Shown here: positions 2,384-36,507 of the stretch, in pieces
Layout of the letters: each line of letters opens with the position of its first letter
How positions within the stretch are numbered: position 1 is the first letter of the stretch
Assembly (NCBI RefSeq): GCF_000741535.1
Contig: NZ_JGYQ01000016.1
Span: 431,454 to 495,453 of the forward strand
Direction: 5' to 3'
Source of the DNA: Bifidobacterium boum
Lineage (GTDB): Bacteria; Actinomycetota; Actinomycetes; Actinomycetales; Bifidobacteriaceae
Length of the DNA: 64,000 nt
The notes under the pieces: generated by a model
The model's input: only the letters and a program-made list of their open reading frames with translations
Told to the model about the DNA's origin: nothing
Database searches by the model: none
Position numbers and translations under genes: made by a program

Positions 2384-2722
2384 ACGGCCTATCCTAGCGG
2401 CATGCCGTGCAACCGCCATCTGCCGGTACCGCCGATTCTCTGCCGGGCCGAGACGCTTTGCCCGATTCTGCCCGGTTCTATCCGGTTCTGTCAAGTTTCG
2501 CATGTCGGAACATACGCGACCCGTCGAGCCTCGGTGTCAAGCGGCATGGTGTCATGGCATGCGACGACTTACGTATGTCATGGCATACGCAACCGGACGG
2601 TTCAGCGTGGAGGGATGGAAAATACCACCCGTGAAGCGTGCGATGTATGCCGCGGTATACACAATCCGGCATACGCCACGTTTCCTGCCCCGCCTGAAAC
2701 CGAGCCGGCCCGCCAGCCTCGG
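2384..2722. other. Intergenic region occupied mainly by structured repeat copy A
   Basis: This 339-bp gap lies between two leftward genes. Most of it is the palindrome-rich element at 2480-2678. Reading frames that cross it have no family resemblance and no supporting start signals. Confidence 0.55.
2480..2678 (-). repeat. Dispersed palindromic element, copy A (about 199 bp, minus orientation)
   Basis: Read on the minus strand, this stretch aligns over its whole length with 36211-36407 read on the plus strand (199 against 197 bp). Shared blocks include CCGGATTGTG near the start, TCCCTCC in the middle, CACCGAG later, and ACAG-AC--GGAT at the end. It contains several hairpins built on a GTATGYC/GRCATAC core, for example TTGCGTATG pairing with CATACGTAA. 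The copy lies downstream of the U32-family gene and is oriented with it. No open frame is conserved between the copies, so a structured RNA or DNA repeat is likelier than a gene. Confidence 0.7.
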
Positions 2723-35839: not shown

Positions 35840-35965
35840 GTGTGATGACGGGGGCATAGTACCACGCAGCACGGGGCAGCCTTGGGCGCCGAGGGACTTG
35901 ATGCCGTAGGGGCCTGCGTCCCGATGAACTCCCGGGCAAATTCCCACAAACCGGCTATCGGCGAG

Positions 35966-35993
35966 AAAACTCCCGCATTGCCATGGGAGTTTT
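35966..35993. terminator. Terminator after the PucR-type gene
   Basis: AAAACTCCC (35966-35974) pairs exactly with GGGAGTTTT (35985-35993) around a ten-base loop. The right arm itself supplies the T run on the plus strand. Confidence 0.65.
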
Positions 35994-36130
35994 AGCGTGG
36001 ATACACGAATCCAGCGGTGTTCTCCCGATATCGGTTTCCGGGGGCGAATTCAACAACCGCGGAATTCCAACGTTTCCGTTGGGAGATTATCCGCAGGGGC
36101 ACGGAATTGCAGCGATCTCCCCCGCAGAAC

Positions 36131-36175
36131 GCGGGAGAACAGCCACGAATCATGGAATTCGCGGAGTTCTCCCGC
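36131..36175. repeat. Inverted repeat GCGGGAGAAC / GTTCTCCCGC
   Basis: The 10-bp arms at 36131-36140 and 36166-36175 are exact complements with a 25-base loop. A third related arm, GTTCTCCCG, lies at 36019-36027, so alternative pairings are possible. Confidence 0.6.
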
Positions 36176-36210
36176 AGCAGTGCGGTCCGACAGACATCGC
36201 GGTGACGGAT

Positions 36211-36407
36211 GCACCGGATTGTGCATGCCGTGGCATACACCACATGCGGAATGGACGGTTTTCGTCCCTCCGCGTGCCAGAACGTCCGTCTGGTGTATGC
36301 CCGGGCATACACCAGATGCCGGATACCGCACCGTTCCACCGAGTTCCGGCACGGTACGCCCTGCTGCGCATGTCGCAGCATACAGAACGAAACGGCACAG
36401 ACAGGAT
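36211..36407 (+). repeat. Dispersed palindromic element, copy B (about 197 bp, plus orientation)
   Basis: This is the second copy of the element at 2480-2678, read on the opposite strand. It contains the hairpin GTGCATGCC-GT-GGCATACAC (36221-36240) and a perfect 28-bp palindrome at 36289-36316 whose half-site is TCTGGTGTATGCCC. Compared with copy A, the central stem differs at two base pairs on both sides, so pairing is kept. It lies downstream of the PucR-type gene, in the same orientation. Confidence 0.72.
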
Positions 36408-36507
36408 GGAACAGCACTGCAGGCAACGACCAGCCCCCGCGATTCTGCCACGGGCACGTATGGCCGACCGCCAATACCCCATACTCCAAGACGCGGAGTA
36501 AAAGGGA

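Follow-up and report, generated by a model that had tools for sequence, protein, structure and literature searches.

Rows of two-fold symmetric dyads at a step of about 73 bp in Bifidobacterium boum and its close relatives, a candidate platform for a dimeric DNA-binding protein

Two palindromic copies in a 64,000-nucleotide stretch of the Bifidobacterium boum genome (the window) are two of many rows in which a 44-bp two-fold symmetric motif recurs at a step of about 73 bp. On sequence evidence the rows may well be a platform for a putative dimeric DNA-binding protein, a reading that we hold with belief and doubt in about equal measure. The rows themselves are real, are lineage-specific, are not an RNA stem and are partly enclosed by ends of the IS1249 type.

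Rows of dyads in the window and in the B. boum genome

A first-pass annotation had described an element present twice in the window, alignable along its whole length and sharing a series of GTATGYC/GRCATAC cores, and both statements held. Copy A and copy B align over their full length with 129 of 182 paired columns identical and a score of 30, whereas all of 300 shuffled versions of copy B scored lower against copy A, reaching at most -2 with no more than 119 identities. Sites within two mismatches of GTATGYCnnGRCATAC number six in the window, three per copy, against 0.41 expected, and six were reached in none of 100 shuffles. Each copy is a row of three imperfect dyads with the core GYATGYCnnGRCATRC, and the steps between the dyads are 72 and 73 bp in both.

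2428..2706, no strand: stretch that holds copy A and is missing in genome G101 (about 7 bp there)
2480..2678, minus strand: copy A, row of three family A dyads between tandem genes, steps 72 and 73 bp
2645..2660, no strand: copy A dyad 1, 16-bp core (the family-wide conserved site reaches about 22 bp to each side of the dyad)
2573..2588, no strand: copy A dyad 2, 16-bp core that matches GTATGYCnnGRCATAC perfectly
2500..2515, no strand: copy A dyad 3, 16-bp core
35841..36503, no strand: intergenic stretch of about 660 bp that holds copy B (same place 69 bp in G101, 105 bp in G008, 191 bp in G100)
36211..36407, plus strand: copy B, row of three dyads between convergent genes, steps 72 and 73 bp
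36223..36238, no strand: copy B dyad 1, 16-bp core
36295..36310, no strand: copy B dyad 2, 16-bp core that also matches perfectly
36368..36383, no strand: copy B dyad 3, 16-bp core

Copy A lies between tandem minus-strand genes for a peptidase U32 and then a laccase-domain protein, and the mechanically called start of the latter gene (2503) touches the last dyad. Copy B is flanked by a PucR-type gene and a convergent ribosomal L1 gene. Just to the left of copy B, positions 35984-36179 carry another dispersed repeat, with relatives at G000:C2:141923 and G101:C5:213840 (73-74% identity).

Further copies, which the annotation had proposed to look for in this and other Bifidobacterium genomes, were found in both. 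In the window's own genome (2,171,356 bp in 18 contigs) the degenerate palindrome matches at 192 sites when two mismatches are allowed, and its reversed version at 93. When 20 places around listed single sites or short DNA matches were taken together with the window, a position matrix identified 60 dyads, and by a stricter rule these make up at least 15 rows with a minimum of two dyads each, besides at least two strong single dyads. More rows were found in B. apri and B. thermophilum, and the longest, with nine dyads, is in B. apri.

Gaps were counted between consecutive dyads no more than 160 bp apart with matrix scores above 16, with no rule on spacing. In the pooled sets that had been picked regardless of spacing, 61 of 95 gaps are exactly 73 bp and 84 are 71-74 bp. 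The own genome and window contribute 19 of 34 gaps at exactly 73 bp and 31 of 34 at 71-74 bp, the remainder being 68, 145 and 146 bp. Twenty places in relatives picked by a single 24-bp site contribute 42 of 61 and 53 of 61, respectively, and the gaps outside the range measure 26, 75, 136, 143, 145 and, three times, 146 bp. The 22 loci picked by an exact 73-bp pair gave 66 of 75 gaps at exactly 73 bp and 71 of 75 at 71-74 bp, figures that are biased by the selection. At the usual helical repeat of 10.45 bp per turn, 73 bp corresponds to seven turns of DNA.

Conservation within the rows follows the dyads. Eleven alignments of orthologous rows were scored, in which a dyad was required in the first sequence only and each pair was counted in both directions. 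Mismatches amount to 242 of 1322 positions (18%) in the core, 1.5-8.5 bp from the dyad, 949 of 2427 (39%) in the spacer and 80 of 166 in the central NN, and a dyad is found at the aligned place for 73 of 88 dyads and is missing for 15. The 29-bp spacers are 35% identical between neighbouring units exactly 73 bp apart (44 pairs) and 28% identical between different rows; by these comparisons the units seem nearly stripped of spacer similarity, yet they keep a common step. Small gaps occur 10 times per 1553 columns inside orthologous rows versus 27 times per 2294 columns of flanking intergenic DNA, a trend short of significance (p = 0.13), and their sizes are 1-5 bp inside and up to 33 bp outside. 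Long gaps are of 73 and 219 bp inside rows, which are whole units, and of 70 and 144 bp outside. The case for selection on the step thus draws on the distribution of gap lengths and falls short of proof, and tandem duplication that hands down the unit length could contribute to the common step.

Empty sites in relatives, another proposed check, were present for both copies. At the place of copy A, rows of dyads also occur in G100 and G008, while in G101 the row is cleanly absent. Copy B is absent from G101, G008 and G100, where no dyad scores above 12 at the corresponding place. Among the strong sites of these three relatives (20 places), 23 groups were distinguished, comprising 20 rows of two to nine dyads and three single dyads; all three singles are in G101. 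At each of L211, L212 and L213, G101 has just one or two dyads, as against two to five in relatives; the own genome has one dyad at the L212 place, and rows of four or five dyads persist elsewhere in G101. Because the copy A row is cleanly missing and only one or two dyads are left at L211-L213, the rows look dispensable there.

Range of the rows and other palindrome families

Across 112 Bifidobacterium genomes, two cores at a 73-bp step with up to three mismatches were found in six: G000 (21 matches), G008 (91), G100 (65), G101 (13), G048 (3) and G014 (1). A reversed-pattern control gave none in any of the 112, and the single three-mismatch match of G014 was treated as probable chance. When a collection of 84,980 species, each represented by a single genome, was scanned for the exact 73-bp pair (the window's own genome was possibly left out), 22 stretches were returned, in B. 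apri and B. thermophilum only; the strains behind them are B. apri DSM 100238 and B. thermophilum DSM 20210 and JCM 1207.

In the ribosomal L1 region identity is 95-98% for G101, G008 and G100 and 86% for G048, which by this measure is a more distant species. The matching rows of G048 are all found within a single stretch, about 8.5 kb long, which over 6.7 kb shares 96% identity with G101; outside it a match to the compared 40-kb stretches is absent, and one homology edge falls within a row. Rows of family A, to which the window copies belong, and of a second family, B, lie near the ends of this stretch (G048:C6:167651-176146; L188, L189). We read the stretch as a probable transfer, a transferred-looking island. 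If the G048 rows arrived in this way, the feature belongs to four close relatives and one recipient. Within the collections searched, family A rows are restricted to the B. thermophilum/B. apri group and G048. A phage origin was considered and rejected, as four exact-pattern scans of IMG/VR (two 73-bp pair patterns and two single palindromes) returned no stretches. The titles and abstracts among the literature matches listed contain no description of rows of this kind in Bifidobacterium, nor is one apparent in the available portions of PMC3642284, PMC12306157 and PMC3733652.

The step is shared by other palindromes. Family B, with the palindrome TGTGAGYSAATCCTCACA, forms pairs at a 73-bp step in exactly five of the 112 genomes (G000, G008, G100, G101 and G048). 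Loci that had not been picked for this family show 57 gaps, of which 54 measure 72-75 bp and 33 exactly 73 bp, and all 57 neighbours are on the same strand. The outer arms of the palindrome may resemble the Rex operator. Rows with a step of 73-74 bp are found at these places, among others:

L070, 1570-1960: family B row
L076, 4049-4560: family B row
L069, 6653-7140: family B row
L171, 4471-4632: family B row

Families A and B adjoin at several places, and the distances from A dyad to B dyad at the borders are mixed as judged by eye. Family D has the palindrome AAACnnGnTACGCT...AGCGTAnCnnGTTT with AAACTGGTTACGCT arms, and its step is 73-74 bp at one place and about 52 bp at four:

L063, 5652-5950: family D row
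L076, 178-394: family D row
L068, 5832-5960: family D row
L070, 6350-6500: family D row
L075, 673-891: family D row

A genus search for family D with a fixed 13-bp centre matched 2 of 112 genomes, a count that is uninformative because the actual length of the centre varies. Spacing in family C was irregular in the scan. A further palindromic repeat, TCTGCCGACGCTGA / TCAGCGTCGGCAGA, is clustered at L105 (1256-1450), L111 and L119 (1620-1760), where a clear fixed step is absent. Taken on sequence patterns, the step common to unrelated palindromes is the strongest hint that a shared spatial rule may exist.

IS1249-type ends, known repeat systems and gene context

Dyad-holding elements in B. apri and B. 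thermophilum share their ends, GGGTTATNGGCC, with an autonomous insertion sequence. In B. apri (G008) there are 21 terminal-repeat hits, 14 of which form seven facing pairs, and all seven pairs enclose dyads. The seven elements are 416-417 bp long with three dyads or 490 bp long with four, and their 8-bp flanks match at 8 of 8 positions in three, at 7 of 8 in one and not in the other three. G100 has seven hits, four of them forming two pairs; one pair encloses four dyads and the other none, and an 8-bp target duplication was found in neither. An 8-bp target duplication is accordingly a property of only some of the B. apri and B. thermophilum elements. The autonomous element with the same ends occurs in other Bifidobacterium genomes (L177, L182) with duplications matching at 8 of 8 positions, and the transposase at L177 is of the IS1249 family (NF033544, E 8.5e-137). 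At least 7 of the 35 terminal-repeat hits (L105, L106, L107, L109, L111, L115 and L119) have a tRNA gene about 50-130 bp away.

The main rival of the platform reading is that the rows are selfish minisatellite cargo: the insides of miniature elements driven by IS1249 and their decayed descendants, amplified into 73-bp minisatellites that neither serve the host nor bind a protein. We regard this as possible but rather unlikely. It would account for the facing pairs around three or four dyads in B. apri (seven of seven) and G100 (one of two), for the target duplications among the nine paired elements (three exact, one 7 of 8), for the existence in the genus of an autonomous IS1249 with the same ends and duplications, and for length differences that come in units (73 and 219 bp) in rows that are present or absent between species. 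However, the cores of orthologous dyads are better kept than their spacers (18% versus 39% mismatch), and a second, unrelated palindrome recurs at this step in those genomes too. Moreover, the own genome has just three terminal-repeat hits (up to three mismatches) against its 15 or more rows. Near copy A and copy B no IS1249-type terminal repeat was found. The small non-autonomous mobile element that the first-pass annotation had offered as one option is therefore a fair description of elements in the relatives, B. apri above all, but finds no terminal repeats near the window copies. Compared with IS1249 (IS256-like) MITEs, several B. apri rows likewise lie between IS1249-type repeats, some with 8-bp duplications, but the IS1249 ends themselves do not include the dyads. 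Were the rows selfish debris after all, they would still offer an unusually clean separation of conserved (44 bp) and drifting (29 bp) parts of a repeat.

Mycobacterial MIRU and bacterial minisatellites are intergenic tandem units in which the whole unit is repeated. Family A rows resemble them in being intergenic and tandem, in unit length and in changing by whole units, yet only the dyad is conserved in them.

A relationship to REP/BIME repeats, which a RAYT-type transposase moves and on which general proteins such as gyrase can land, had also been suggested for the window copies, and we consider it improbable. Location and dispersal agree with it: the rows are made of short extragenic palindromes in many clustered and dispersed copies, lying in the own genome only in tandem or convergent gaps (none of 17 places divergent). 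In the available portions of PMC3733652, REPs are defined by a tag, GTAG or CGTC, that marks one end of their palindrome, and tandem clusters of such REPs are described in other phyla. The consensus of 284 arms, read by eye, contains neither tag, and a stem-loop kept by pairing was not seen among 152 dyads. The Y1_Tnp/RAYT transposase (PF01797) was found in none of the five array genomes, while it matched in 2 of 10 further Bifidobacterium genomes and in 5 of 14 control genomes, and RAYT-driven REPs were rejected on this ground. What is conserved here is a symmetric site of 44 bp that recurs in rows at a 73-bp step, and not a pairing stem.

Two other comparisons are partial. CRISPR arrays also carry palindromic repeats at regular intervals, but near-identical repeats with unique spacers were not found here, the dyads being diverged (152 distinct 36-mers), and none of the four genes next to the window copies encodes a Cas-like protein. 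Dispersed chromosomal binding-site systems are represented by parS, Noc sites and matS. As in these, a symmetric core of about 16 bp recurs around the chromosome; unlike them, the dyads here stand in rows of two to nine at a fixed step and are conserved over 44 bp.

The rows are for the most part intergenic. Gene context was assessed with calls from a codon-usage script made for this analysis. In the own genome and window, nine of 17 places are in tandem gaps, eight in convergent gaps (one overlapping a called ORF) and none in divergent gaps; the background of the window is 27 tandem, 4 convergent and 3 divergent among 34 intergenic gaps. All 41 places together comprise 14 tandem, 12 convergent and 4 divergent, two of the latter sharing one gap, with 9 at a locus edge and 2 overlapping a called ORF. 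The 23 groups in relatives, which are partly the same places as in the 41-place set, are 10 convergent, 6 divergent, 5 tandem and 2 at an edge. That the rows are operators of an ordinary transcription regulator seems very improbable: the dyads do have the anatomy of dimeric operators, and one G101 single (L209) sits in a divergent gap, but 20 of the 23 groups are rows of two to nine dyads, divergent gaps are empty in the own genome, and the four genes beside the window copies are functionally unrelated. As judged by eye, no regulator gene stood out near isolated dyads among the loci read, and no candidate binding protein among the genes called in 10 array loci.

Arm independence and the possible role of the rows

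In the pooled profile of 284 arms (GRCATRCGCAACnnGnCRnAT) information is present between 1.5 and about 21.5 bp of distance from the dyad and drops close to zero from 22 to 46 bp. Conservation over 44 bp that then ends fits a two-fold symmetric protein site. Pairing between the arms was examined in 152 distinct dyads (distinct 36-mers) at 18 positions, with shuffled partners as the control; the dyads had been picked with an additive symmetric matrix, and the statistics ignore their relatedness. Pairing exceeded the shuffle at one of the 18 positions (-5/20, 0.49 versus 0.37, p 0.002) and was well below it at position 1/14 (0.37 versus 0.54), while positions 0, 2, 3 and 4 are nearly invariant and give little information either way. 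At core position 5/10 the combinations T-A, C-G, C-A and T-G occur 32, 32, 40 and 36 times. Since arm combinations are free at this position and pairing is not above the shuffle, the half-sites appear to be kept independently, which is expected of a dimeric protein and contrary to a hairpin. A two-fold symmetric site with independent half-sites is what an array of protein-binding dyads would contain.

Another reading is that stem pairing matters, in a structured RNA or a cruciform; the first-pass annotation had offered a structured RNA as one option and had pointed to compensatory changes in the central hairpin as a sign of selection on structure. Those changes (two pairs altered on both sides and one G-T pair turned into G-C) are present in the sequence, but they hold for that one pair of dyads and are not a general feature of the 152. 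The described series of hairpins stands as palindromes, each copy being a row of dyads, and fails as RNA-like hairpin pairs. Copy B does fold better than its shuffles (z -3.45) and position -5/20 is the one place where covariation was seen, but the other 17 positions lack it, C-A is as common at 5/10 as the standard pairs, copy A does not outdo its shuffles (z -0.39), and Rfam at gathering score reports two tRNAs only in the whole window, with no family matching either copy. We rejected an RNA or cruciform structure on the arm test and give it hardly any weight. The case is a reminder that compensatory changes in a single pair of copies can mislead.

Returning to the protein platform, we would picture a putative dimeric protein that binds each dyad, with cooperative binding across the same helical face at intervals of about seven turns. 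Bound rows might organise or insulate DNA, mostly at the 3' ends of genes, rather than regulate promoters. The rows would grow and shrink through unequal exchange of 73-bp units, and miniature elements may have spread them.

A bolder and tentative proposal, which we think rather unlikely, is that bacteria of the B. thermophilum group possess a dedicated system akin to chromatin, in which unrelated palindromes (A, B and probably D) would stand in rows of integral helical turns, spread by IS1249 and kept by selection at gene ends. Proteins would then be aligned on one face of the DNA, at seven turns (73 bp) and, in family D, also at five turns (52 bp).

If the rows are protein platforms, they would provide a ready bait with which to find a new protein that organises DNA, in actinobacteria outside the usual model organisms, and miniature transposons would be shown to be able to carry architectural sites. 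If the chromatin-like proposal were true, a spacing rule that sites of unrelated sequence obey in common would amount to a new principle in the organisation of bacterial chromosomes.
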